Shown: in pieces, positions 50,079 to 64,000 of the stretch
Numbering within the stretch: position 1 is the stretch's first letter
Layout of the letters: each line of letters starts with the position of its first letter
NCBI GenBank assembly: GCA_944390795.1
Contig: CALXRI010000002.1
Coordinates: 186,001-250,000, forward strand
Length of the DNA stretch: 64,000 bases
Reading direction: 5' to 3'
Source: an uncultured Victivallales bacterium
Lineage (GTDB): Bacteria; Verrucomicrobiota; Lentisphaeria; Victivallales; UBA1829
Notes under the pieces: generated by a model
Database searches by the model: none
The model's input: the letters and a program-made list of their open reading frames with translations, nothing else
What the model was told of the DNA's origin: nothing
Translations under genes and position numbers: made by a program

Positions 50079-52088
50079 TTATCGGGCGGGATGAAACCGC
50101 AGGAGGAAATAAGGACAGCCGGGCTGAAGGGGAATGGAGCGCAGTTCCTCCATGGAGAGCTCCCGCGGCTCCCGGCGGGAATACGGCTCCAGAAGTTCCA
50201 CGCGGGAAAAACCTTCCGCCATTGTCATGGAAAGCGGCTTCCCATGTTTCGGTGCAATATGGGAAATGATTTTCAGATGGCGGAAGGCAGGAGAATGCGC
50301 GTTCCGCCGTTTTTCAAGCGATTCATTCAAAGCGATGCAATACTCCAGCGCAATGAAATGAACCAGCAGACGCCCCGCCGGATCAACATAGCGTCTGGAC
50401 GCCCAGCCCTCCGCATGAAGACGGGTGCAGCATTCTTCAAGAATTGCGGAGAATCCGGCGGGAACGCCGGAAGAGAAACGCCTCGTGAACCAGTGAAATC
50501 CGGGATACGGCCTGAAAACTCCTTCCGGAGTGCACTCCCCGGGGGGAAGAGCCGCGTTCCGGGGATCGCAGAGCGAGCCTCGGCCTTTCTCCGGAAAGGA
50601 GACAGGCAGGTCGCAGCGGGAGGCAAAAGATTTCTCCGCAGGCGCGCCGGATGCCGTCCGGAACCCGAAAGGACCGAGCACGACGGCCGTTTTCCCCGCA
50701 TCCGTCCAGCGCTTCATCGCAGCATACATCTCTTCCGAAACACAGACAGCGGAAGGAACAAGGAGCACCTTCCAGCGGGATCCGGCATCGGGCACATCCG
50801 TCACGACATCCGCGGAAAATCCGTGTTCCAGCAGATACATGCACAAGGCGGAATAATCTTTTGCGCAGTCTTCTTCCATTCCGCCGAAATTCGCGACGGT
50901 GTCACAAGGAAACAGAACGGCGACATCACCGGCGCCGGCGGCATGGAACCATTCCGCATGCTTCTCCTCAAAACGGAAGATGCCGTCCAGCTGTTCCGGA
51001 TCATCCGGGATCCTCCTCATATCCTGATCGCTCAGGCCGAGGCGGTGAACCAGGGAGGAATACCACGTTCCGGAATTCAGGAATTTGTTGAACGCCCAGA
51101 CCATGAATGCCGCATCGGAGGAAAATCCGTATCCCAGGCCGATGCACGGCAGAGCGGATTTCTCCGCCATGGCAAGATGCAGCAGCTGGGAAGGCAGCTC
51201 CTTCCGGAAAAGGGCGCCGCCTGCATCCGGCGTGTTCCCGCACATCTCCAGCATGACGGTGTTCGCACCCGCCTCGATGAAGGCGCCGTAAGTCAACCCC
51301 CTCTCCAGCAGAGCCGGGTGGATGCTGGAGGCGCAGCAGCTCATCAGGGGAAAGTTCCGCGGCAGACTGGCAGTCACTCCGCGGAAATAGTCGCGGACGG
51401 AATCCAGGCGCATCCGGATCATGGCGCGGTAGTCCGGATTGTCCCGGTTTCTCCAGAAGGAAAAATCCCCGGCCGGGGGATATTCCAATCCGTATTCCCG
51501 GCGGAAGCGGGCGCAACAGAAGGGACAGAAACAGCCGGACAGCGGGAAAATGGCGTCATCGCTCATCAGCCCGTCGATCGCCGTGTCGGCGACAAGCCGT
51601 TTCAGGTAGGCATAATAAGCCTCGCGGAAATCCGGATTGTTCATGCAGAAGGACTGCGCCGCATACTGCGGATAGAAAACGTTCCGCCCGCCGGCATCTT
51701 TCATTTTCCACTCGTCAAGCATCTCCCGGGGAAGGAATCCGTCGGGCGGCGAAATCAGCATCTGGCGGTGGTTGCTGTATGTCTTCCGCGCGTTGAAGCG
51801 CCGGGGATCGGGATTGTAATTGCAGCTCAGAACGGAGGAATGATGATCGAACAGAACGATCCCGTATTGATGCAGCTCGTCCGCGACGAATGCGATCAGT
51901 TCATGAAGCTGCCCGGTCACCGGCATGAAATCCCAGCGGAAATGCGCGCCGAAAACAATCGCCGCATTGACACCCTCGCGCGCCATGCACGCCGCACGGC
52001 GGCGGAATTTCTCCGCACTATTCCGGTTCGGCCACGGAAGGTCGTCCTTCCGCAGCCACCAGCTGACCATGCGGTAATGATCTTTCAT
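50079..52088 (-). CDS. GH42-like glycosidase, no signal peptide
   Basis: 669 residues, starting at an ATGA overlap with the previous gene (52085-52088). The N-terminal barrel has a stretch GLMSDDAIFPLSGCFCPFCCARFRREYG (residues 173-200). Its CFCPFC (Cys186, 188, 191) resembles the zinc-binding cluster of GH42 beta-galactosidases. Asp177-Asp178 stand at the matching strand end. The middle part (YSALCMYLLEHGFSADVVTD, then KVLLVPSAVCVSEEMYAAMKRWTDAGKTAVVLGP) is the flavodoxin-like trimerisation domain of GH42, followed by a beta domain. It lacks a signal peptide, unlike its upstream neighbour. Last gene of the GntR-led operon. Beta-galactosidase activity is not assured. Confidence 0.78.
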   Translation of the reverse strand: MKDHYRMVSWWLRKDDLPWPNRNSAEKFRRRAACMAREGVNAAIVFGAHFRWDFMPVTGQLHELIAFVADELHQYGIVLFDHHSSVLSCNYNPDPRRFNARKTYSNHRQMLISPPDGFLPREMLDEWKMKDAGGRNVFYPQYAAQSFCMNNPDFREAYYAYLKRLVADTAIDGLMSDDAIFPLSGCFCPFCCARFRREYGLEYPPAGDFSFWRNRDNPDYRAMIRMRLDSVRDYFRGVTASLPRNFPLMSCCASSIHPALLERGLTYGAFIEAGANTVMLEMCGNTPDAGGALFRKELPSQLLHLAMAEKSALPCIGLGYGFSSDAAFMVWAFNKFLNSGTWYSSLVHRLGLSDQDMRRIPDDPEQLDGIFRFEEKHAEWFHAAGAGDVAVLFPCDTVANFGGMEEDCAKDYSALCMYLLEHGFSADVVTDVPDAGSRWKVLLVPSAVCVSEEMYAAMKRWTDAGKTAVVLGPFGFRTASGAPAEKSFASRCDLPVSFPEKGRGSLCDPRNAALPPGECTPEGVFRPYPGFHWFTRRFSSGVPAGFSAILEECCTRLHAEGWASRRYVDPAGRLLVHFIALEYCIALNESLEKRRNAHSPAFRHLKIISHIAPKHGKPLSMTMAEGFSRVELLEPYSRREPRELSMEELRSIPLQPGCPYFLLRFHPAR

Positions 52089-54325
52089 TCCGTCATCTCG
52101 ATCCGGCGGAATCCCGCGTCCGGATATTTCCTTGCGAGCCGTTCCATCTGCGGATTGAAGGTTTTCCGGATAAACTCCGCCATTCCGCTCCCGGAACGAT
52201 CCGGAATGCGGAAGCGGATCTCCCTGCCCTGCGCATGGACGGGGAAATCGATCCTTCCTTCCGGAAAGATCCTCTTCCGGGCGATCAGGACTCCCGCAAT
52301 CCCGCCGGCGGGCACGGCAATCATGATTCCCCTGCGCAGTTCCGGAGCGGAATAACTGCGTCCTGATGCGTTTTTCCTGTTGTCGATGCCGACATTCAGG
52401 AAATATCCGTCACCTTCCGGCAGATCTTCCGGAACAAGACGCAGAATCTTCGCCTGTTCATAATCCCAGTTGAAAAGCGTGAAGAGCCGCCAGTCGTTCT
52501 CCCCATGGGCAATGCACTGAAGTGCGCCGTAACGGTCCGTCGCCATCAGAAAGTAATTGCTGAGATATCCCCGCTTCATTTTTTCACGATAGGGAGACGG
52601 TCCGGAAGTGCAGTCATACAGGCGGAAACTCCGTGCGTCGAGGCGCGTCCGGACAGAAAGGAGATCCTCGAAATCCGCGCCGAACTGAATCCCTTCCGCG
52701 ATTCCGGTCAGGGCATCGGCATCCGCGACAAAAGGCGAGGCGGCAATCTCCACGCCGGAAGCGCCCTGGGCGAAATCCGAGGCGATCTCCAGCTTGTGGA
52801 GCTTCCGCCGGAAATCGACTCCCAGCCCCCGGAACCCTTTCCTCCGGGCGAAATCATATCGCCCGTAAATGCAGAAGAATCCCCAGTTGACCCAGTGCAG
52901 GGAGGTTGCCCGGGCGATGACTGGCCGGGAAAGAAGCGCCTTCCCGTCCGGCGTCTTCTGCAGAAACGCGCCGACCGTCATGACGGAGGCAAGACCCGTC
53001 GCCAGCGAATCGGCACTGTGAAAATCAACGCTGCCGTCCAGGATGCGCGGATCCTCCGCAAAGGCGGACCATCCGAAACTCCGCAGGGCGGACAGATACA
53101 CATTCTCATGAACGAGATTGGAATTCCAGCCGATCGTGACCCCGAGCTCCTCCCGGAGCAGTTTGAGCACCTTTCCGAACAGGTTGCACCGGAAGAGATA
53201 CCACTTCCAGGGATATCTCGCGACCAGTTCTCCGGCTTTCAGCTTCAGACATTCCGACTCGTCCGCACCGGCGAAGGCGGCAAAGGCCCGGCGGCATTTG
53301 TCACAGTAGCAGCAGTCGTAAACCGGCGGCTCGTAATCGCTGAAGAAGACGCGGAACCCGCGCCTGATATAACGACGGTAATAACTGCGCATGCAGGCGC
53401 GGACGGGGGAATCCTTTTCCGCCATGGCGCTGAAACAGAACATCTGCTTGGGACAATTGCGCATCTCCCGCATGGAACGCCCGGACGCATTGCGCTTCAC
53501 ATCCCGATCCGTGACACGGAATCCGGCGGCGTTCATCGCTTCCGGCGTAATTCGCTGGGAGTAGGAAAAGCAGTTCATGGCAATTGTCTCGAATCCCAGC
53601 CCGGAGCGGAGTTCCGCCACAGGGCAGACGGCATCCGGGAGCCAGCTTCCCCCGCTCTCGACAATGCCGTTCACCCCCGCATTCCTCATGGTTTTCAGAA
53701 TGGCAAGATAATATTCCTCCGTCCAGGCGCCCGGTCCGGTCTTGTTTCCATACATTCCCATGGCACTCCAGACGGAAAGATGCTTCGGCTTTTTCGTCAG
53801 GACCGGCGCGGGCAGCGTGAAGAGTTTCATCGTGCCGGAAACCGGTTCGAAAGCATCTCCCGTCACCGTCCACGGAACATCGAACCGTTCCGGCCCCCTC
53901 CCCTCCGGCGAAAGGAAAATGACAACCGAACTCTCGGTCCATGGAACGGTGGGACGCCAGGGATGCGCGGACACCCTGTAGACGGACTGATAATTCACGT
54001 TTCCGGCGGAAAGCGTCCATTTCCGCCATCCCTTCCCCGCGGGTGCGGATGAAATGCTTTTTCCCGGACGCGGCCTCCGCCCGATCGAATAATGCCCGAT
54101 CCGGAAATTTTCCGGCAGCTCCAGCGTGACGGCGACACGGCCGGAACGAAACGCCTTTTCCTTCGCCCATGTGTGCAGGATCAGGACGGACGGGGCGTCG
54201 GAAAAAACCGAGCCGGTCCGGTCATCCCGGTAACCGTCGGGAAAAGTTCTGATTTCAAGCTTTTCCGCGCCGTGCAGAAAAAGTCCGGACAGAAGAAACA
54301 GCAGAATCGGCAGGATGGTTCTCAT
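52085..54325 (-). CDS. Secreted glycosidase-like protein with Asp-x-Glu and Cys cluster
   Basis: 746 residues from ATG 54325 with AAGGAG; an ATG at 54352 overlaps the pseudopilin stop and is the alternative start. A signal peptide (MRTILPILLFLLSGLFLHGA) is followed by a beta domain (~25-170) and a TIM-barrel-like region. In the latter, FRVFFSDYEPPVYDCCYCDKCRRAF (residues 324-348) holds Asp330 and Glu332, then Cys338, 339, 341 and 344, reminiscent of GH42-type and DUF4838 barrels. The C-terminus has a beta-sandwich. Family not firmly assigned. Between the pseudopilin and the GH42-like gene on one transcript. Confidence 0.72.
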   Translation of the reverse strand: MRTILPILLFLLSGLFLHGAEKLEIRTFPDGYRDDRTGSVFSDAPSVLILHTWAKEKAFRSGRVAVTLELPENFRIGHYSIGRRPRPGKSISSAPAGKGWRKWTLSAGNVNYQSVYRVSAHPWRPTVPWTESSVVIFLSPEGRGPERFDVPWTVTGDAFEPVSGTMKLFTLPAPVLTKKPKHLSVWSAMGMYGNKTGPGAWTEEYYLAILKTMRNAGVNGIVESGGSWLPDAVCPVAELRSGLGFETIAMNCFSYSQRITPEAMNAAGFRVTDRDVKRNASGRSMREMRNCPKQMFCFSAMAEKDSPVRACMRSYYRRYIRRGFRVFFSDYEPPVYDCCYCDKCRRAFAAFAGADESECLKLKAGELVARYPWKWYLFRCNLFGKVLKLLREELGVTIGWNSNLVHENVYLSALRSFGWSAFAEDPRILDGSVDFHSADSLATGLASVMTVGAFLQKTPDGKALLSRPVIARATSLHWVNWGFFCIYGRYDFARRKGFRGLGVDFRRKLHKLEIASDFAQGASGVEIAASPFVADADALTGIAEGIQFGADFEDLLSVRTRLDARSFRLYDCTSGPSPYREKMKRGYLSNYFLMATDRYGALQCIAHGENDWRLFTLFNWDYEQAKILRLVPEDLPEGDGYFLNVGIDNRKNASGRSYSAPELRRGIMIAVPAGGIAGVLIARKRIFPEGRIDFPVHAQGREIRFRIPDRSGSGMAEFIRKTFNPQMERLARKYPDAGFRRIEMTE

Positions 54326-54348
54326 ATGCGGCTCCTTGTGTAATGCGT

Positions 54349-55086
54349 TCATCGCAGACAGTTGTAGACGCTTGTGGAATCCCCCCCGAACTCCAGAATC
54401 ATTCTTGTCCGGCTTACGGCTTCCGCATGCCCGTCCAGAAAAATCATGTTCGCATTCCGGGAGTGAATGCCGGCGGGCGCCTTGGATGACGCAAGCATGC
54501 AGTACATCTGCAGGCCGTTGACCTTTGTCTGTCCGATCGAGGAGCAGCCGCGGAGGTTGAAGGCGGCAGGACGTCTCGCCTTTGAAAGATCCATCACCCC
54601 GACCGAACGGAGATACAGCAGGGACGTCACATCAAGCCTGTCATCCCCGAATCCGCGGCGGATGTCGGCACGCGTCGCATAACAGTACAGACTCAGATAC
54701 CTGCCGGCATTGTTCGGGAGACTGAAATGTTTCACAAGCCCCGGGCAGCAGTATGCCTTTCCGATGTAAAATGTTCCGGGGGAACCGCTTCCATGTGACG
54801 GCGCCAGATATCCCTGACGCCAGTAAAACTGTGGATAATAGATGCTGTAGGTCGTTCCGTTTCCCGGATGGAAATATTCCATCTGCCCCATCACGCTCCA
54901 GATCCCCCGATTGTCGCTGGTGTAGTTCTGATCGACTACGCCGAGCTGCCTGAGCTGACTCAGACAGGCGATTCCGTCCGCTTTTTCCCCGGCGCGCTTC
55001 AGGGCGGGCAGAAGCAGGGACACAAGAATGGAAATGACGGCGACAACAATCAGCATTTCGATCAATGTGAATTCAAGTCGTTTCAT
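54349..55086 (-). CDS. Pseudopilin-like protein
   Basis: 245 residues from ATG 55086 with AAGGAGG. A leader MKRLE, then FTLIEMLIVVAVISILVSLLLPALKRAGEKADGIACLSQLRQLG: the prepilin signature and helix. Near the C-terminus IHSRNANMIFLDGHAEAV carries the H-x9-D-G motif. In between lie aromatic-rich stretches with paired Cys residues (AYCCPGL, LYCYA). It follows the GntR-type regulator by 19 bases and overlaps or abuts the secreted glycosidase-like gene, the same order as in the operon starting at 10983. Confidence 0.87.
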   Translation of the reverse strand: MKRLEFTLIEMLIVVAVISILVSLLLPALKRAGEKADGIACLSQLRQLGVVDQNYTSDNRGIWSVMGQMEYFHPGNGTTYSIYYPQFYWRQGYLAPSHGSGSPGTFYIGKAYCCPGLVKHFSLPNNAGRYLSLYCYATRADIRRGFGDDRLDVTSLLYLRSVGVMDLSKARRPAAFNLRGCSSIGQTKVNGLQMYCMLASSKAPAGIHSRNANMIFLDGHAEAVSRTRMILEFGGDSTSVYNCLR

Positions 55087-55105: not shown

Positions 55106-56164
55106 TCAGGAAGAGCGTTTTTTCATCGTGCTCCTGCCGATTTTCAGCGTAAAGGGTGCGCAAAGAGTCCGGGGAGGCCCTGCGGAGCCGTCCAGAATGG
55201 CAATCATTCTCCGGACCGCCATCGCGGTCAGCCTCTCCTCATGGGCGACGAGCGTCGTATATCCCGGATTCCGATTCTGGATGCAGGCGACATCCGCAAG
55301 CGACACGTCGCGGGGAACGGAGATGCCCCGTTCCTTCAGGCTCAGAAAAATATGACGGACCAGCGGCGGAACCACAATCACGGCGCTGGGACGTTCCCGG
55401 AGGGCCATCAGACGCTCCACAATCCCGTCGGCGATTTTCTTCGACTTTTCCATCCCGTTGAAACCGGTCCGCAGCCGGCTCCGGGGAATGATGCAGAAGA
55501 GTTCCTCGGAAAAATCATCCCCCATGGCGTTCCGGAAAATCGATTTCAGCTTCGCGATATACTCCGCATATTCCTGCTTCCGTTCATACTCGACAAGGGC
55601 GATTCTCCGGTGTCCGAGCCGTTTCAGATATTTCACAAGAACGCCGTATCCTCCTGCATGATCGTAAGTCACACGGTTCAGCCAGGGAAAGTCGAAAAAC
55701 GGTCCCCCGATGACGGGAATGGAACATTCATGAAGGCGCGATAAAATCCAGCTGGTCGAGTAGGAGCCGAGAAAGATGTAGCCGTCAAAGGGGAAATGCA
55801 GCAGGAGCTCGTAATCCTCCGCCTTCAGGTCCAGCGCGACGACCTTGTATCCGAACTTCCGGCTTCGGCAGTTCAGATAGTCGATCAGTTTTTCCGAACC
55901 GGCAGTCGACGCAATCCCGAGAATGCCGATGGCATGATGTCCGGGAGAGCCGCCGGGACGGGAAACCGGAAATGTGCCCTGCGGACCGTTGACGCGGATC
56001 ACGCCGCGCCGGACAAGGAGACGCATGGCCTTGCCGACGGTCTTTTTATCAACGCCGAACATGGAGGAGAATTTCCGGACGCCCGGCAGACGGCCGTTCG
56101 TCGGATTCTCCCGGATCCAGCTCTCCATCATCCGGGAAAGCGTCTCGTATTTCTGCTCAAACAT
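55106..56164 (-). CDS. GntR-type regulator with LacI-like effector domain
   Basis: 352 residues from ATG 56164 behind GGGAG. The N-terminal winged helix (TLSRMMESWIRENPTNGRLPGVRKFSSMFGVDKKTVGKAMRLLVRRGVI, with wing GPQGTF) is followed by an effector domain of the LacI type: HHAIGILGIASTAGSEKL, YLKRLGHRRIALVEYERKQEY, PSAVIVVPPLVRHIFLSLKERGISVPRDVSLADV and a final block with YTTLVAHEERLTAMAVRRMIAIL. It leads the operon with the pseudopilin and two glycosidase-like genes and has its own consensus promoter. A distant paralogue of the regulator at 10983. Confidence 0.9.
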   Translation of the reverse strand: MFEQKYETLSRMMESWIRENPTNGRLPGVRKFSSMFGVDKKTVGKAMRLLVRRGVIRVNGPQGTFPVSRPGGSPGHHAIGILGIASTAGSEKLIDYLNCRSRKFGYKVVALDLKAEDYELLLHFPFDGYIFLGSYSTSWILSRLHECSIPVIGGPFFDFPWLNRVTYDHAGGYGVLVKYLKRLGHRRIALVEYERKQEYAEYIAKLKSIFRNAMGDDFSEELFCIIPRSRLRTGFNGMEKSKKIADGIVERLMALRERPSAVIVVPPLVRHIFLSLKERGISVPRDVSLADVACIQNRNPGYTTLVAHEERLTAMAVRRMIAILDGSAGPPRTLCAPFTLKIGRSTMKKRSS

Positions 56165-56360: not shown

Positions 56361-58568
56361 TCAGAACTCTCCGTCGCGGCAGGCACGGAAGAGATACACT
56401 CTTGCCGAGGGGTCCCCGTTGCCGGCCAGAACGGTCAGGCGGAAGGCCGAAACGGACATTCGCGCGAATGTGTGCTTCCGGACACGCCGGTAATTGCCGG
56501 AAACCTCCGCAACCGGTATCCATTGTCCGCGGCAGAGCGCCTCGACCTTGTAGTCCCGGACGCATTCGACAGCCGCTCCGCGGGTATGTTTTTTATCGAG
56601 ATTCGTGTCGAAAACTAGTTCGACACGGGAACAGACGGTCTCCTTCGCGCATGTGAGCGTCAATGTCTGGGGAAAGCCCTGCGCAGGATCCGAAATCCAG
56701 AGATTTGCGGAAAGTCCCGGACGCGGCGGCGTTTTCACGGCATTTTCCGGGACGAACACATGCTGCGGCGGCTCCACGGAAAAACAGAAGTTGTCATCGG
56801 AAAAGTAGCAGCCGTCCGGTTTGCAGTAAACGCCGGGCAGATGCCGTCTTTCCGTGAGCGCCGATACGCCCGGAACCTCCTCCAGCAGGAGAAAAACGCT
56901 TTTGCAGGCGAGCGGCACATGGAACTCAAAGACTCCCTCGACATTTTCGCCGGGTGGCACCATGGCCTTTCCGAGAGCGAGTTCCTTTCCTTCGAAGACG
57001 CCGGGGAAGCGCGATTCATGCAGAAACGCCTTCACTTCAGCAGCTCGGCCGGTACGGTTGCGGAAACGAAGCGCGATGCGGTCGATATGATCCGTGGCGA
57101 CGGGAAACATCTGTCCGCGCCGTCGGTCGGTCGGGGGAACGTCGCAGGGATCGTAAATGGCCGGATTGCGGGGTTCCGGGGCCAGCGGCAGTTCTCCGGC
57201 GGGGGAATCAAGGCGCAGAATCATGTCGCTGTCCGCCTCCACGCGGGAAAACATCCCGGACTCCATGGACGGCATCCATGGAAGAATCTGGTCGTTCCGG
57301 TAGAGAACGCTTTGAAGTTCCGGGATATGGCTTTTCCCGAGCTCGCGCGGCGTGCAGGCATATTTCCGGCAGAGTGCGGCGGCGCTTCCGACGGCCTGTC
57401 CGCAGAGCGCGCAGGTCGCCATGACGCGCGTCGAACCGAGTGCCACATGCGTCACGCTGATATTGCGTCCGGCCATCATCAGATTGTCGATGTTGCGCGA
57501 GTAGAGGCAGCGGAACGGAATCGGATAGACGCCGGGGAAAATGAATGGCGGCGTGGTTCCGGGATGTCCCTTTCCGAAGACGCCTTCGGGCGGGTGGATG
57601 TCGATCGGCCAGCCGCCGAAGGCAACCGCGTCCGGGAATTCCGGATGGTTCATGAGATCGTTCTGCGTGAGAATGTAATCGCCTGTCAGACGTCTCGACT
57701 CGCGCTTCGCCGGAATTGCGGAGATCCATTCAATCGCATAGTTTTCCGCTCCGTGGTCGCCGCCGTTTTTCACGTGGTCCCACATGCCGAAGAGGATCGA
57801 GAGAAGTTTCCGGTAGATCTCCTCGTTGTCGTGAATGGTGTCGATCTCTCCTCCGTATTCGAGCCACCAGTAGCCCTGGCGCGGATTGCTGTGCATGCGG
57901 TAGGGCAGATCGTCGTCGGAGCGGATTTTATAAGCCCACTCCGGCGCGTTGAATGGAATCGGGCGTCCCGTGTCAACGGCGCGGAATGCAATCGATGAGC
58001 CCATGGTTTTCCGGTCCGCCTCTTCCGGAGCGAGGGATTCCTGAAATTCGCGGCGCGCCTCGCGTCCGACGCGGTATTCCGCGCCCGCCGAGAAGCCGAC
58101 GAAAGAGTCCCCGGAACAGTCCGCAAAAAGCGGGGCGCGGAGGCGGTATTCCAACTCACTGCCCTGCGTCCGCGCCTTCAGGGATACGATGCGCCTTCCC
58201 TGCGTTTCGACCTCATAAACCTCCGTATTCAGGAGCAGGGTCAGGAGTTTTTCGCGTTCCGCCCATTCGCGCATGACGAGACTCCAGTGCTGTCTCCATC
58301 CGTTTTCCGAGCGGAAAAAGGATTCACGGCGCATCTCTTCTAGGATTCCGGTTTCCATCGCGCCGCGGTTCACATACTCCGGCGCGCCGGTGATAAAGGC
58401 TCCGTCGCTGTTCTGGCAGCATTCCGAGCCGGACGGTCCCCCCAGCACGGGACGGTTCTGGACGAGAAGGGTTTTCGCTCCGAGCCGGGCCGCCGCAATC
58501 GCCGCCACTGTTCCGGCGACACCGCCGCCGACCACAATAAAATCGCAGTTGTGTGATAAGACTTTCAT
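56361..58568 (-). CDS. FAD-dependent oxidoreductase with C-terminal beta domain
   Basis: 735 residues. The N-terminal FAD-binding motif FIVVGGGVAGTVAAIAAARLGAKTLLVQNRPVLGG (10-44) and the FADCSGDSFVGFSAGAEY block define the family often annotated FAD_oxidored, common in Planctomycetes and Lentisphaerota glycan loci. SRNIDNLMMAGRNISVTHVALGSTRVMATCALCGQAVGSAAAL is the second cofactor segment. After about residue 490 comes a region of beta character with discoidin-like features (LWISDPAQGFPQTLTLTCAKETVCSRVELVFDTNLD). No signal peptide. It is the last gene of the minus-strand run from the right edge and may oxidise a sugar in the same pathway. Confidence 0.83.
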   Translation of the reverse strand: MKVLSHNCDFIVVGGGVAGTVAAIAAARLGAKTLLVQNRPVLGGPSGSECCQNSDGAFITGAPEYVNRGAMETGILEEMRRESFFRSENGWRQHWSLVMREWAEREKLLTLLLNTEVYEVETQGRRIVSLKARTQGSELEYRLRAPLFADCSGDSFVGFSAGAEYRVGREARREFQESLAPEEADRKTMGSSIAFRAVDTGRPIPFNAPEWAYKIRSDDDLPYRMHSNPRQGYWWLEYGGEIDTIHDNEEIYRKLLSILFGMWDHVKNGGDHGAENYAIEWISAIPAKRESRRLTGDYILTQNDLMNHPEFPDAVAFGGWPIDIHPPEGVFGKGHPGTTPPFIFPGVYPIPFRCLYSRNIDNLMMAGRNISVTHVALGSTRVMATCALCGQAVGSAAALCRKYACTPRELGKSHIPELQSVLYRNDQILPWMPSMESGMFSRVEADSDMILRLDSPAGELPLAPEPRNPAIYDPCDVPPTDRRRGQMFPVATDHIDRIALRFRNRTGRAAEVKAFLHESRFPGVFEGKELALGKAMVPPGENVEGVFEFHVPLACKSVFLLLEEVPGVSALTERRHLPGVYCKPDGCYFSDDNFCFSVEPPQHVFVPENAVKTPPRPGLSANLWISDPAQGFPQTLTLTCAKETVCSRVELVFDTNLDKKHTRGAAVECVRDYKVEALCRGQWIPVAEVSGNYRRVRKHTFARMSVSAFRLTVLAGNGDPSARVYLFRACRDGEF

Positions 58569-58674
58569 ACTTCAGTTCCTGTTTTTTTCCGGCATTTCGG
58601 CTCTGCTTAAAACAGACCCCAAATACCTGCCACAGGGATCCTGTGTCCCACGAAACAGATGGAGCTGTTCCGGA

Positions 58675-59505
58675 TTACTTTTTCACCGGCAGTTCTGTCA
58701 GTATCAGATTCCGGAACATGACACCTTTTTTCGAATCAATGCTTTCCACTACGATCATGGCATATTCTGTTCCCAACCACCAACGGTTCAGGTTTGCGGC
58801 GGGAACTGCTCCGGGGGGAATTACGACTTCGATTTTCTTCCAGTCATTCCCCAGTGCCGCAGCGGCGGCTCCGGCGTAAAAATAAGTCCAGCTTGCACGG
58901 TGTGCGCGGACCGGTGTTCCTGCCGGATAATTCTGTCCGACCGGCGCATTCAGTTCAAGTTCCACTCCGTCGCTGACCGGGCGGACGGCAGTGATCAGTC
59001 CTTTGGAAAGATGATTGTTCGGCAGATCACGTTGTTTTCCTGTCGGGTCAACATCAAAAGCAATCAGGCTGATGCCATCCTGTTTCCAGTTCGCTCCGTC
59101 TTTGATTTTCACTTTTTTGTCCGCCGCGCGGCAATCTGCCAGCAATACGGTTTCGCTGTTGGGAACGATGTTGATCGAACGGGCATTCAGCGGTGACTTT
59201 TTTGCCGTCAGCAGGATCAGTCCGAAACGAATCAGGTTGCCGCTTTCGCCGCTTACAGATTTGAATTCTCCGCTCAGGCGGTACGGTGAATCCAGATTGA
59301 CGGGAGCCTTTTCCAGATAAAAATATCCGCCGGGGGCCTTGACCTTGCTCTGCGGCTGCATAGTGAAAATCCCGTCAGCGGCAATCAGTTTGTCGCCATT
59401 GTAAAAATTCTTTGCAGAGTCCGCCTTGACCGACACAGGATCCGCTCCCCATACGGTCGCGGCGGCGCACAGCAGGGAAAACGCCTGAATTAAATGTTTA
59501 TTCAT
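58675..59505 (-). CDS. Secreted protein of unknown function, beta-rich
   Basis: 276 residues from ATG 59505, behind AAGGAGG. Residues 1-20 form a signal peptide (MNKHLIQAFSLLCAAATVWG). The rest appears to be beta-sandwich, starting GGYFYLEKAPVNLDSPYRLSGEFKS and ending MFRNLILTELPVKK, like carbohydrate-binding modules. Characteristic blocks FGLILLTAKKS, PAGTPVRAHRASWTYFYAG and GNDWKKIEVVIPPGA recur in the decayed gene at 10375-10871, so this is a lineage-specific family. It sits 17 bases after the large secreted protein gene. Substrate binding is inferred. Confidence 0.7.
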   Translation of the reverse strand: MNKHLIQAFSLLCAAATVWGADPVSVKADSAKNFYNGDKLIAADGIFTMQPQSKVKAPGGYFYLEKAPVNLDSPYRLSGEFKSVSGESGNLIRFGLILLTAKKSPLNARSINIVPNSETVLLADCRAADKKVKIKDGANWKQDGISLIAFDVDPTGKQRDLPNNHLSKGLITAVRPVSDGVELELNAPVGQNYPAGTPVRAHRASWTYFYAGAAAAALGNDWKKIEVVIPPGAVPAANLNRWWLGTEYAMIVVESIDSKKGVMFRNLILTELPVKK

Positions 59506-59521
59506 GATCTTGTCCTCCTTG

Positions 59522-62413
59522 TTAAATGTTGTGATCTATGGATAAGGCTCGCAATGCGCCTTTGAAATACCCGGCGTTTTCAGGCAGTCCGAATTCCGCT
59601 TTGGTGTGACCTCCGAAGACAGCGGGCTTGAAGTAGAGTGTGCGTCCGCCTTCAAAAGGAAAGAACCGTTCCTGTCCGTTGACTTTGATCGTCAGACGGT
59701 GAAGATCATAGCTGATCTGAACGTCCGACCATTTGCCTGGTTCGACAATGAATCCGGACGCGAAGTTATGCGTCTGGAGCTTCCGGTCAGTGAAACTCAC
59801 ATACAGACGGTCGAATTTCACATAGACTGTGGCAGAGCCGAGAATCGAGGAGAAATGACGGAATAGCACATAGGGATTTTCCGTTGCTTCCGGCTTGATT
59901 TCAAAACTCAGCCGGAACGGTCCACGCGGAAATGTCTCCAGTGGAAAATGCAGATAGGTTTTTCCATCGAATTTCAGGATGTCGCGGTTATCCTCTTTCA
60001 TCCGGACGGGTCCGCGTCCGTTTGACGGATCGGCGATGTAATGGAAAGCATCATCATACTTGTAGCCGCCGCCGAGCGTTGCGGTGAAATACGGATGAAA
60101 GCTGTTGAAAAGAACCGCATTGTCCCTGTTGTCGAATTTCCATTTGAGACGAGGAATCAGAGCAGAGCGGACAGGAACGGAAACAACTTTCCCGGAAGTC
60201 TCGGAATTGACATTCAGCATTTCCGTTTTTTCCGGCACTGCGACCGGCATCACGGGCGCAGAACGGTAAATTCTGCCGGATTCGGAGACCGCCCGGAGCT
60301 GATAAACGGGATAACGATTCTGCGATTCGAGAACAATATCAAATTCGGCGGAATCGCGCTCGATGTGGACGGGAATATCTGGAAGACTCAGATAATTTTC
60401 CAGTTGCAGACGGCATTTCGGATAATGCGTATCAATTCTCCGTTGCGCCAGTAGGTCAGCCACTTTGAAAGTTTTGGTTTCGCCGTCCACACTGATTCGG
60501 AATTCCGCTTTGTCAGCCTGTTCTTTCGGCAGGGTCAGAATAAATCCGGAGGGTTCCGTCCAGCAGTAGATGTGACAGTCCGCCCGGTTGCCGTTTTTCT
60601 TGATCGTCCCGAAATTGACGTTGGCCTGCTCCCACGCCCGCATCTTCCAGTCTCCGCCGTTGACCATTTCCAGCGTCATCGGTCTCCAGCCCTTGTTGCG
60701 GGTGGTGAACCAGCCGGTCAGGACCAGCTGCCGGGAGCGGTCAAATTCTCCGACGGGATCGCAGGCATAGACTTCCAGTCCCCGATCCGTGACTTCCAGC
60801 GAGTTCAGTTTCTCTGCGGCTTTGAATTTTCCTTTCAGACGAAAGCGGCCATCTCCGATGGATTCCGCTTCAAACACCACTTGCCCGGCAACGAGCATAT
60901 CCCGCAACGGCTGACGGACAGACTTATAATTGCTGTTCACTGTCGGATTTACCAGAATGTACTGGAAGTTTCTGTAAATCCGCAACTTGCCGTCATATCC
61001 GGTAACTTCCAGTTCTGGTATGAATACAAAGTCCGGCATTAGTTTTTCTGTTGGGACAGTATACGTGACAGCGCGGAGCTGATCTCTGCGGAATTTTTCC
61101 GCTGGGAACGAGATCAGATTTTTGCCGGACAGATTTCGAAGATGCAGCCGGACGCTGTAACTGTCCTTTTTGATTCCGTCCGGAATGTTCAGCAGTTCAA
61201 ATTGCAGCGGTTCGCCGGTTTTCAGACGCGAACGGTGCGACAGAACCAACTGCGGCACAGCCGGGTCATCCCCCGGATTTGGTTCGGGTGTCAGCCCTTT
61301 CAGATGCCGGATGTAAAATTTCAGAAGCCGCTGAAGCGCAAGCGAGTTGGCAAGTGTCGGCTGATAACAGGTGTTTTCGTTGAATTCATTCCATTCAAAG
61401 AAATAGATGAAATCCGGATTGAGCAGCATGATCCGATCCAGTTTGCCGCGGAGTGAAGCCGTTCCGAATTCGCCGTGCGTAACGCCGGACATGTGATTGA
61501 TGTATCCCTGTCTAACACATGCCCCGATCAGTTTCTGCCGGAACTCCGGCATGGCGGTCAGTTTCTGCAGAATAGGCAGCAGATAACGGTCATAGGCTCC
61601 GAATTCCTCATGGGTCATGTATTCTCCATCTGTCCGGTTCCAGCACATCTCGACTTGCAGCCCGTCATACAGACGCAGGGCTTTTTCGATCCGGCGGCGG
61701 TATTTCTGAACCGTGGAGTCCGACCATTTCCCGGTCTGATTGTATTCCTCCTGATCTTTCCAGTCGATTCCATACGATCCGATCAGAGCGAACACATCCC
61801 CATATTTTGCACGCAGAGCTTTGATGAATGCCTCCATGGCATCTTGATTTGCCTGCCAGGCGCAGTACGTGGTGATCGGGATTCTGCCGTTTACTCTGGG
61901 CGTGAACGGACTTTTCAGCGCAATGTCCAGAATCGCACAGGCCGTGGTAAACACAGTGTCTTTCGGGGAAAAATCCCGGAAACTTCCGGAAAAGGCAAAC
62001 TGGGGAAATTCCTTGTGTCCGACAGCCAGCTGCGGGTATTTTTCCAAATATCCCATGACGGTCTTATACAATCCAAAAATCGGCAGTGCCAAACTTCCCG
62101 CGCCGTCAAATCCGTAACGCTTCATAATGGCTATATCTCGGAAATAGGACTCCGGCGTGATATAACTGTACTTGTTCGCCGGATACCGGGTCGCCCGGTC
62201 ATGAAATAGCGGACGGTCAATATATATTCCCAGAAGATTGTGGAACAGTCCGTATTTATACTGGACCTCCGGATAGAAAAACGGTGTCTCGATCCGGGGG
62301 CGTTTCCCGATTTCCATGGTTGCGGTGTATTCCGCGCGGGCAAATTCCTCCGTGCCGGCATTTCCCCAACACAGCAGCAATGCCGCCGCAAGAACAGTCC
62401 TTTTCATTTCCAT
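59522..62413 (-). CDS. Large secreted TIM-barrel glycosidase-like protein with LamG-type end
   Basis: 963 residues from ATG 62413 (AGGA five bases upstream; ATG 62407 also possible). A signal peptide MEMKRTVLAAALLLCWGNAG is followed by a barrel-like domain to about residue 390. This contains FHNLLGIYIDRPLFHDRATRYPANKY, GLQVEMCWNRTDGEYMTHEEFG and PDFIYFFEWNEFNENTCYQP, the last a WNE strand end typical of endo-acting glycosidases such as GH71 and GH99. Several beta domains follow. The final ~190 residues (KWKFDNRDNAV to GYFKGALRALSIDHNI) form a concanavalin-like LamG fold, a usual glycan-binding unit. Exact family not assigned. Confidence 0.75.
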   Translation of the reverse strand: MEMKRTVLAAALLLCWGNAGTEEFARAEYTATMEIGKRPRIETPFFYPEVQYKYGLFHNLLGIYIDRPLFHDRATRYPANKYSYITPESYFRDIAIMKRYGFDGAGSLALPIFGLYKTVMGYLEKYPQLAVGHKEFPQFAFSGSFRDFSPKDTVFTTACAILDIALKSPFTPRVNGRIPITTYCAWQANQDAMEAFIKALRAKYGDVFALIGSYGIDWKDQEEYNQTGKWSDSTVQKYRRRIEKALRLYDGLQVEMCWNRTDGEYMTHEEFGAYDRYLLPILQKLTAMPEFRQKLIGACVRQGYINHMSGVTHGEFGTASLRGKLDRIMLLNPDFIYFFEWNEFNENTCYQPTLANSLALQRLLKFYIRHLKGLTPEPNPGDDPAVPQLVLSHRSRLKTGEPLQFELLNIPDGIKKDSYSVRLHLRNLSGKNLISFPAEKFRRDQLRAVTYTVPTEKLMPDFVFIPELEVTGYDGKLRIYRNFQYILVNPTVNSNYKSVRQPLRDMLVAGQVVFEAESIGDGRFRLKGKFKAAEKLNSLEVTDRGLEVYACDPVGEFDRSRQLVLTGWFTTRNKGWRPMTLEMVNGGDWKMRAWEQANVNFGTIKKNGNRADCHIYCWTEPSGFILTLPKEQADKAEFRISVDGETKTFKVADLLAQRRIDTHYPKCRLQLENYLSLPDIPVHIERDSAEFDIVLESQNRYPVYQLRAVSESGRIYRSAPVMPVAVPEKTEMLNVNSETSGKVVSVPVRSALIPRLKWKFDNRDNAVLFNSFHPYFTATLGGGYKYDDAFHYIADPSNGRGPVRMKEDNRDILKFDGKTYLHFPLETFPRGPFRLSFEIKPEATENPYVLFRHFSSILGSATVYVKFDRLYVSFTDRKLQTHNFASGFIVEPGKWSDVQISYDLHRLTIKVNGQERFFPFEGGRTLYFKPAVFGGHTKAEFGLPENAGYFKGALRALSIDHNI

Positions 62414-62438
62414 CCCTTTCCTTATTTTATCAGATTTT

Positions 62439-63371
62439 TCAAGTAAACAGTACCGGCAGTTCATCGCGCAAAATAAAAAAACCGAATTCCCGGAATTTTC
62501 CTCCGTCATCCAGATATTTTGCCACGGTCCGCTGCATTGAAGTCTCATGCGGGACGGCATGAATGCCGCATTTCTGTCCTTTGAGTCCGAATACGCGCCA
62601 AATCACTTCGTTGGTTTCATCAATTCCCGGCAGCTCGAAAGCATGTCCCAGCGTCTGAAACTCTTTCAGATTGCTTTTCGGATTCAGTTCCGCGAAAATC
62701 GGATCCAATACCCAGGAATAGCAGACAACGGCGCGGAACAGATAATCCGGACGGTATTTCCTGCAGAACTCCACTATTTTCCGGATGGAGTCAATGCAGT
62801 CTTTCCGTTTCAGGGGCCCGGCGGCCGGGATGTGAAGATTAATCACGCGGTCTCCGAAATTCAGCAATGCCGCCGGGTCAGGATTCTTTCCGGGAATCAT
62901 TTGAATTCCGCCGTTCTTTCTGACCACGGAAAACGCCCCGTTGAATTTGTGTGGAATATCACATTGAAGACGTCCCAACTGGAGGATCTGTCCGGAAAGT
63001 ACGCAGCGGCACCAGAAAAATATACGCCAGTCAAGCCCTGCATATCCGAAATCCGCCATGGCTTTGTCTCCCCAGATCCGCAGGTCGTTGCGGATATCAT
63101 CCAGCATGGACTGCGGATATCCTTTTCTCCGGTACAGATCCCGGAGAATATGCCAGCTGGAGGCGATCAGAATGTAGTTGAACTTCCGGTGTTCTCCGCC
63201 AGGATAGTTTTTCTCAATTTCTTCAACAGGGAAATCGCCGAACAGTTGCGCTTTTTTCTCCTTGAAAAAATGCCTGTCGATTTGTGAATAAAAATCTTTC
63301 ACCGTATTCAGCTGCGTTTCAGGAAGCCGGAATTCTTCCGCGGCTGCCAGAAAATCCTGCCAGTTCTCCAT
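62439..63371 (-). CDS. Acyltransferase-domain-like protein (DUF5596 type)
   Basis: 310 residues from ATG 63371; a TTG 27 bases earlier is possible but less likely. The stretch WHILRDLYRRKGYPQSMLDDIRNDLRIWGDKAMADFGYAGLDWRIFFWCRCVLSGQILQLGRLQCDI matches the pattern I know for the DUF5596 / GNAT-like C-terminal pair, with the G-R-L-Q signature. The second half has INLHIPAAGPLKRKDC and CYSWVLDPIFAEL. The reaction is not known. It lies between the pseudopilin at the edge and the large secreted protein, probably in one transcript. Cytoplasmic; no signal. Confidence 0.72.
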   Translation of the reverse strand: MENWQDFLAAAEEFRLPETQLNTVKDFYSQIDRHFFKEKKAQLFGDFPVEEIEKNYPGGEHRKFNYILIASSWHILRDLYRRKGYPQSMLDDIRNDLRIWGDKAMADFGYAGLDWRIFFWCRCVLSGQILQLGRLQCDIPHKFNGAFSVVRKNGGIQMIPGKNPDPAALLNFGDRVINLHIPAAGPLKRKDCIDSIRKIVEFCRKYRPDYLFRAVVCYSWVLDPIFAELNPKSNLKEFQTLGHAFELPGIDETNEVIWRVFGLKGQKCGIHAVPHETSMQRTVAKYLDDGGKFREFGFFILRDELPVLFT

Positions 63372-63431
63372 TTTGCGTTTCTGCCTTTCTGCCGGCAATT
63401 CAAATATTCTGCCACCGTTCCAATGTTATTT

Positions 63432-64000
63432 TCACGGTACCGTGGTGCGTTTGAAATACTTTCCGCCGAGACCGGTTCTCTGAAAACGGGACTGGGCATT
63501 CCTTTCCTGCGAACAGTGCCCGTCCACCCACAGTATGTTGGCGGAAAATCCGGCATGAGCTAAATTGATGCGGTTCACTCCGTTTGCTTCGCATGCCTGC
63601 TGTATTACGCATGAGCTTCTGCTTACGTTCGAACTTTCGCGGGATTCCGCCAGATTGATTTTTCCGGAGGGCGATTTGACCATTTCAACTTTTGCCGGAC
63701 GGAGTGTCCAGTCGCCGGATCCGTTCAATTCGTTGTAGCTCCCTCCGAGATTCATGTAGTTGTAGCCGTACGTGATGTACTGATACCGCGAAGAAGTCTG
63801 CGGATTGTTGATCGCATTGTTTTTGCCGGAAGTATAATCGTTGGTCAGCGTGTTGATCGCGGAAGGACAAAAGTAAACCTTGGGGTCGGGCTGATACTTA
63901 TGTTCTTTCATGAGGTAGGGCCAGAACAGGTAAACATCCTGCAGATACGGTGGATAGTATGAATTGAAATCGCCGTTATAAAGCGAGAAGGCAAGCCCGA
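63432..64000 (-). CDS. Pseudopilin-like protein, C-terminal part (5' end outside window)
   Basis: The frame is open to the right edge, so the gene starts outside. About 189 residues are visible: GLAFSLYNGDFNSYYPPYLQDVYLFWPYLMKEHKY, VYFCPSAIN, and AHAGFSANILWVDGHCSQ near the end, the DGH motif of the pseudopilin group (H-x10-D-G here). The N-terminal FTLIEL signature is not in view, so the call rests on the DGH motif, the YGYNYMNLGGSYN segment and the gene order. It precedes the DUF5596-like gene on the same strand. Confidence 0.7.
   Translation of the reverse strand, partial: GLAFSLYNGDFNSYYPPYLQDVYLFWPYLMKEHKYQPDPKVYFCPSAINTLTNDYTSGKNNAINNPQTSSRYQYITYGYNYMNLGGSYNELNGSGDWTLRPAKVEMVKSPSGKINLAESRESSNVSRSSCVIQQACEANGVNRINLAHAGFSANILWVDGHCSQERNAQSRFQRTGLGGKYFKRTTVP

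Follow-up and report, generated by a model that had tools for sequence, protein, structure and literature searches.

Polysaccharide utilisation loci bring together, in one cluster, a LacI/GntR regulator, secreted glycan enzymes and binding proteins. The locus described here groups a regulator with putative secreted glycan enzymes and binding proteins in the same way, and departs from those loci in carrying a prepilin gene and in having its cargo exchanged between fixed edges. For the individual proteins, the closest described systems are the GH71 alpha-1,3-glucanases, the GH99 endo-alpha-mannosidases/mannanases and the Tei11/Dbv8 N-acyltransferases. GH71 and GH99 have fold and acid pair in common but work by different mechanisms. 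The accessible part of PMC12394665 describes a D/E-x-x-E acid pair in which Asp at first place is almost restricted to GH71 (inverting) and Glu is found in GH99 (acting via a 1,2-anhydro sugar); a Lys stands above the acid pair, and the difference in mechanism between the two families is tied largely to Asp versus Glu at the first place. An excerpt of PMC11025385 gives the GH99 pair motif as EW[H/G]E and also mentions some GH99 proteins with a DYGE motif, so that the letter of the first acid alone does not set the mechanism. Tei11 and Dbv8 acylate the glucosamine freed by the deacetylases Tei2 and Dbv21, as stated in the available portion of PMC8987122.

Gene order and a site of exchanged cargo

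The window, that is, the whole 64,000-nucleotide stretch that was analysed, comprises positions 186001-250000 of a 252-kb contig in a 3.44-Mb draft genome (G000). The acyltransferase, the barrel protein, the small protein and the FAD oxidoreductase are encoded by four real genes, all on the minus strand, and the order of transcription on that strand is regulator, prepilin, acyltransferase, barrel, small protein, FAD oxidoreductase. The GntR/LacI-type regulator lies just outside the window (64248-65432 on the window scale, minus strand) and was named from the domains of its orthologue in G001, which matches Peripla_BP_3 at 1.4e-23 and GntR below threshold. It is followed by a prepilin-type protein of 245 aa, the first gene of the slot, which occupies 63432-64000 of the window and runs on to 64169 (minus strand; full ORF read past the window end). 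The coordinates give gaps of 60, 31, 16 and 106 bases from the prepilin through the FAD gene on a single strand, spacings as in an operon. The FAD-dependent oxidoreductase (56361-58568, minus strand) closes the slot; it matches PF12831 (FAD_oxidored; E 1.7e-87, 294.9 bits against a cut-off of 27) and is conserved at 80-96% (amino acids) in three genus mates. The initial annotation rightly placed such an enzyme after the small protein, but the gene lies outside the interval given there for the group.

Four genomes of the genus, all draft, were compared: the window host and its mates G001, G002 and G003. All three mates have orthologues of the regulator and the prepilin start at one edge and of the FAD gene at the other, and the interior differs. 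The match of G002 to the window is collinear, at 94% over 44-57 kb and at 95% up to 58547, where it breaks; homology returns at 64057, taking in the prepilin start and the regulator, and G003 and G001 lose and regain the match at these same positions. This synteny delimits a variable slot reaching from 58569 to about 64056, of which 58569-64000 is within the window. Nucleotide identity with the mates at the prepilin start, 77-81%, is limited to 64056-64171; in the alignment the first ~40 prepilin codons are orthologous across the genus and the prepilin bodies differ, and the conserved start is a possible recombination edge.

Cargo is present at the slot in all four genomes and is of three kinds. 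G002 carries a prepilin, a DUF4838 protein (PF16126, 2.5e-21) and a TPR protein, while G003 and G001 each carry a prepilin, a protein of 498 or 497 aa (72% identical to each other; one with a weak GH123_cat match, E 0.03) and a second protein of 286 aa (from an inner start) or 347 aa, respectively; the mates' prepilins give sub-threshold N_methyl/DUF1559 matches. The 497-aa protein has no match in G000 or G002 at E 1e-10, and G000 contains nothing close to the DUF4838 protein of G002 (27% at best, over the longest match). Conversely, the window barrel has no close homologue in the genus mates (best 36%), and the window acyltransferase finds there only a conserved 396-aa core paralogue. The slot is thus a cargo site at which the cargo has been swapped, and the cargo of the window is missing from the mates.

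We favour, as probably correct, the reading in which the slot forms the variable section of a regulated locus for glycan use, whose fixed parts are the regulator, the prepilin start and the FAD gene, with exchangeable cargo between them. An ordinary vertically inherited operon, from which the mates lost this cargo and gained others in a region of fast turnover and no special exchange, would also account for a codon usage that is no outlier, for a low GC that is common to the conserved regulator side, and for families that are all widespread in the order. We consider it rather unlikely, as it has to accommodate three kinds of cargo within one pair of conserved edges across four genomes, closest barrel relatives in other Lentisphaeria (45-52%, up to 52% outside the genus) against 36% within it, and an acyltransferase that groups in the tree with family f4 rows and one f1 row (support 99/98), apart from the core copy of the genus.

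The initial annotation had suggested a possible later acquisition on the ground that the region seems more AT-rich than the left part of the window. The base composition bears out the observation, with a GC of 0.509 for 58600-64000 against 0.578 in the remaining window. When the window and 316 kb of sampled genome are divided into half-overlapping 5.4-kb blocks, 6 of the 114 have a GC as low; the genome sample is non-random, since 5 of its 16 stretches were chosen for carrying small-family paralogues. The GC of the FAD gene is 0.605, so the drop begins at the upstream edge of that gene, which is not AT-rich. The codon-usage distance of the stretch is unremarkable (28 of 168 gene runs are equally far or further). 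Composition is insufficient by itself to indicate acquisition, because the conserved-regulator stretch beyond the window also has a GC of only 0.523; together with the ordinary codon usage this led us to reject it as proof. What stands behind later acquisition is the synteny, namely other cargo in all three mates and no close homologue of the barrel or the acyltransferase.

Beyond the FAD gene lie a second GntR/LacI-type regulator (55106-56164) and a second prepilin (54349-55086). The second regulator has a 12/12 match to a sigma-70-like promoter, TTGACA-18-TATAAT, at 56236-56207 on the minus strand. A 755-aa protein (52085-54352, minus strand), which belongs to no Pfam or NCBIfam family, is 92-93% conserved in two genus mates along with its own regulator and prepilin, in contrast to the swapped slot.

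The barrel protein and the small beta protein

The barrel protein (59522-62407, minus strand) has 961 aa, in place of the 963 residues first counted, and both the barrel and the LamG domain of the initial annotation are present. It has a signal-peptide-like start, a (beta/alpha)8 barrel with a beta-sandwich at residues ~41-503, further beta domains and a C-terminal LamG-like lectin domain (residues ~815-961; 59525-59965, minus strand), which is recognised by Pfam at E 5.4e-06 (PF02210, PF13385) and matches the jelly roll of AbnA domain 4 in Foldseek and VIA. No catalytic family of Pfam or NCBIfam is reached over cut-off: the barrel has no match to GH71 (PF03659), for which one of 10 relatives (L151) gives 15.3 bits against a cut-off of 34, and none to GH99 (PF16317), which also finds nothing in G000 at E 0.001.

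The AlphaFold2 model, built from 54 rows, has a pLDDT of 93.9. In VIA, residues 43-503 of the model superpose on the GH71 enzyme Agn1 with Z 21.2 and rmsd 3.4 over 356 residues; AnGH71C follows with Z 20.6 and BtGH99 with 18.6. Among barrel folds both Foldseek and VIA place GH71 first and GH99 next, the overall top Foldseek row for the protein being a multi-domain beta-galactosidase with a TM of 0.26. The model has the features of the GH71 fold, a (beta/alpha)8 barrel and a packed C-terminal beta-sandwich. A profile search of PDB sequences returned LamG matches first, then weak matches to GH71 (E 0.0098) and GH99 (E 0.023); a match to a MutL chain (E 0.16) was dropped as chance. Profile-profile alignment by hhalign gave a probability of 99.4 and E 4.3e-21 over 306 columns against eight GH71-Pfam rows, and a probability of 97.2 and E 3e-11 against eight GH99-Pfam rows.

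Both hhalign alignments put E341 and E344 of the motif E338-W-N-E341-F-N-E344 (61376-61396, minus strand) on the catalytic D/E-x-x-E acid pair. The alternative pair E338-W-N-E341, which looks like EWHE, was dropped, the profile alignments giving the register W-N-E341-x-x-E344. E338, E341 and E344 occur in 19/19 rows of an alignment not chosen by motif (A1: the window protein and 18 of 26 sequence-search matches, after removal of copies of the window gene, fragments and near-duplicates), and K292, which hhalign aligns near the GH71 Lys, occurs in 18/19. The 78 barrel loci discussed below were found by the pattern EW[ND]ExNE[ND], so that motif invariance in the 54-row alignment A2 was not used as evidence. 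The first acid of the pair is Glu in all 19 rows of the barrel family, and the Asp-x-x-Glu pair of GH71 is thereby absent; in both the GH71-Pfam and the GH99-Pfam rows it is Asp (8/8 each). By the hhalign register, then, a Glu-x-x-Glu pair of the GH99 type is present, though the PF16317 rows compared carry Asp.

With the GH71 alpha-1,3-glucanases (AnGH71C, 9fnf; Agn1, 8yfh) the protein has in common a barrel followed by a packed beta-sandwich, the W-N-[D/E]-x-x-E register and a Lys before the pair, whereas its first acid is Glu, it has no Pfam GH71 match, and it possesses extra beta domains and LamG. With the GH99 enzymes it has in common the barrel fold and the Glu-x-x-Glu pair; however, fold and profile matches are weaker than to GH71, its motif reads N-E-F-N-E and PF16317 is not reached. 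On the model and the profile alignments it looks like a secreted protein that belongs to the GH71/GH99 fold group but is unclassified, lying outside the sequence definitions of both families; secretion, substrate and mechanism are inferred. Its long multi-domain beta architecture with a terminal LamG would also suit a protein that uses the same fold for binding or as a scaffold, without catalysis. Conservation of the three motif Glu residues and of K292 across a divergent family, and an hhalign register in which E341 and E344 coincide with the catalytic acids already known, make this very improbable, and we continue to regard the barrel as a putative glycoside hydrolase.

Barrel-related ORFs were found in 27 of 80 relatives and also, among others, in Kiritimatiellae, Planctomycetota and Armatimonadetes records. 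Most of the relatives that carry a name belong to the Lentisphaeria or groups close to them, and the host itself is very probably one of the Lentisphaeria. Three barrel-family genes stand in tandem at L167:1008-9706, and one genome (G076) has 13 matches to the family.

The small protein (58675-59505, minus strand) is, as first annotated, a small beta protein of a lineage family: it has 276 aa, a signal-peptide-like start and a jelly roll with a long insertion, and the genome holds five clear paralogues and one further match at E 0.124. It has no Pfam or NCBIfam match, so no CBM family profile was reached. Its model, built from seven rows, has a pLDDT of 80.6 and resembles CBM4-2 (VIA Z 12.2), CBM22 (12.0) and CBM16 (11.7); it has the jelly-roll fold in common with CBM4, CBM16 and CBM22 and differs from them in its long insertion and the missing Pfam match. 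The family is present in 29 of 80 relatives, often within larger proteins, including three proteins of 993-1014 aa, two of which have heparinase II/III-like domains, and one of 1108 aa that combines LamG with a GH99 match below threshold. To judge from the modelled fold, the protein most likely serves as a binding module.

The acyltransferase and the recurrence of the gene set

The acyltransferase (62439-63371, minus strand; 310 aa from the ATG) was first described as a DUF5596-type protein. The acyltransferase ORF is there, but that name was not met among the matches, and the Pfam domains are GNAT_C (PF18164, E 6.8e-28, 97.8 bits against a cut-off of 22.8) and NAT_N (PF18082, 25.8 bits against a cut-off of 27.8). 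It has no signal peptide and is predicted to be cytosolic. The initial annotation went too far in calling its reaction unknown: the closest solved chains are the glycopeptide N-acyltransferases Dbv8 (4mfz, E 2e-06) and Tcp24 (4q36, E 8.7e-06). His180 (codon 62832-62834, minus strand) is present in 25 of 25 family rows and aligns with the His of the Dbv8 HIPE stretch (HIPxxGPL) and with that of Tcp24; we take the equivalent residue to be catalytic in the glycopeptide N-acyltransferase superfamily. With the Tei11/Dbv8 enzymes the protein has in common the GNAT_C domain and the conserved His and, with NAT_N just under its cut-off, probably the NAT_N plus GNAT_C layout; it differs in belonging to a Lentisphaeria glycan locus. 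These similarities assign it, as a sequence-based prediction, to the superfamily of the teicoplanin/A40926 glucosamine N-acyltransferases, so the reaction is not wholly unknown.

The neighbours of related acyltransferases were surveyed at 74 loci, made up of 60 of 63 newly picked places (the three weakest left out) and 14 earlier ones. A PIG-L deacetylase stands beside the acyltransferase on the same strand in two of them (L294 and L301; Pfam 1.6e-15 and 5.5e-13), and this is the same enzyme pair that tailors the teicoplanin glucosamine according to the available portion of PMC8987122. The two pairs, at L294:4650-6480 and L301:5636-7367, are next to a DUF4838 protein and outside antibiotic clusters. 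Three survey loci have a protein with the small-type domain, 58-62% mutually alike, the Pfam heparinase domain being reached in two, and a prepilin lies within two genes of the acyltransferase, or is fused to it, in 7/74. GntR-like neighbours (16/74) are near the expectation from abundance, and DUF4838-like neighbours (7/74) are at best weakly enriched, both by our own estimate with no control. An L-fucose isomerase was found next to or near the acyltransferase gene in several genera, at seven of the 74 loci by clustering (L275, L281, L286, L305, L307, L327 and L111), of which two were confirmed by Pfam; a stricter motif found only two. The survey neighbours fit an N-acylation of amino sugars during glycan breakdown. 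In the lysosome, a glucosaminide N-acetyltransferase prepares heparan sulfate ends for NAGLU, and a counterpart role for the bacterial acyltransferase may be taken, by analogy, as a lead only.

Two further observations concern the distribution of the acyltransferase. One 733-aa frame in G003 (L104:8314-10512, minus strand) contains both the acyltransferase and a prepilin (GNAT_C 180-393, N_methyl 482-502) and is either a fusion or the product of a lost stop codon. All 13 genomes of genus g5 (G007, G014, G021, G025 and G027-G035) are without an acyltransferase or barrel match at E 0.001, and related genera have several.

The complete set of acyltransferase, barrel, small protein and FAD gene was found nowhere outside the window among 80 relatives per protein, 20 chosen loci and 78 barrel loci, and yet parts of it recur. 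A prepilin lies at most 1.5 kb upstream of the barrel on the same strand in 22 of the 68 barrel genes with enough sequence and on the opposite strand in none, falling to 5/57, 1/50 and 2/42 (same strand) in the bins farther away. The barrel is directly followed by the small protein in four of the 78 barrel loci (L124, L130, L132 and L170) and in one of the 20 chosen loci (L087). Orthologues of the FAD gene are near a barrel gene in 2 of 11 loci, both outside the genus (L257 and L258), with the order prepilin, barrel, phosphoesterase-like ORF (named from its sequence) and FAD gene in L257; others lie next to large proteins that look secreted, several of which have CBM9 domains (L264, L265 and L267).

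The acyltransferase itself occurs in 0/78 barrel loci, and its link to the barrel may therefore be accidental. It may be a passenger unrelated to glycan breakdown, in which case the unit would consist of barrel, small protein, prepilin and FAD gene. Two loci (L130 and L132) have the same order of prepilin, barrel and small protein without it, and its nearest (short-type) relatives share no neighbourhood except for one within-genus set with a LeuA-like protein, a comparison based on crude gene calls in which L085 was garbled by spurious ORFs and the LeuA-like protein was named from its sequence and not by profile. Against this stand the short gaps, of 60 and 31 bases, that separate it from the flanking same-strand genes, and the distant members found in other prepilin, lyase or DUF4838 operons; we find the passenger reading quite plausible but lean somewhat against it. 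The initial annotation saw in the combination of genes a sign that an acylated glycan is processed, which would have all four work together and the acyltransferase act on the substrate of the barrel. Elsewhere in the order, relatives of the acyltransferase do share a glycan operon with a heparinase II/III-like protein, in three genomes, and stand with PIG-L at two loci, whereas the enzyme would be cytosolic and the barrel secreted, and the pair does not recur in the 78 barrel loci; joint action on one substrate is accordingly unlikely.

Proposed function and meaning of the locus

For the reading that we prefer, a regulated glycan-use locus with exchangeable cargo, we propose the following sequence of events. 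The regulator would answer to a sugar, as its sugar-binding-type domain suggests, and the prepilin may take part in a type II-like export system or a surface structure. The secreted barrel, whose fold and alignment point to E341 and E344 as the acid pair, would cut an alpha-linked glycan while the LamG domain and the small CBM-like protein hold it to the substrate. Fragments would be taken up into the cell, where the cytosolic acyltransferase, to judge from its teicoplanin/A40926 relatives, would N-acylate an amino sugar from acyl-CoA and the FAD enzyme would oxidise a product. Recombination at the site would have exchanged the window cargo with other glycan enzymes, in either direction.

A wider proposal joins these elements: Lentisphaeria would possess dedicated docking sites for swappable glycan-degradation cargo, under a fixed regulator and edged by the prepilin start, as one site of recombination, and the FAD gene, at which each cargo would come with a prepilin body of its own that assists in exporting its enzyme, and the window cargo would found a new GH family with a GH99-type Glu-Glu pair on a two-domain scaffold of the GH71 type. 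We put it forward as speculative and on balance improbable. We found no report in the open-licence literature of prepilin-linked cargo in Lentisphaeria, or of a GH71/GH99 relative of the barrel type in that group. If the proposal were true, the Glu-Glu pair on a GH71-type scaffold would be a natural test of an epoxide-type retaining mechanism against an inverting one.

Two results stand out as lasting, the cargo slot and the unclassified family of the GH71/GH99 type. This family, large and carrying Glu on a scaffold like that of GH71, could directly test the Asp/Glu account of mechanism, as given in the accessible part of PMC12394665. The acyltransferase superfamily is known mainly for tailoring antibiotics, and the contexts found here offer it a candidate acceptor in the amino sugars that glycan fragments contain. 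The cargo slot suggests that poorly known gut-type bacteria may change their diet by swapping the enzyme set under a standing regulator.
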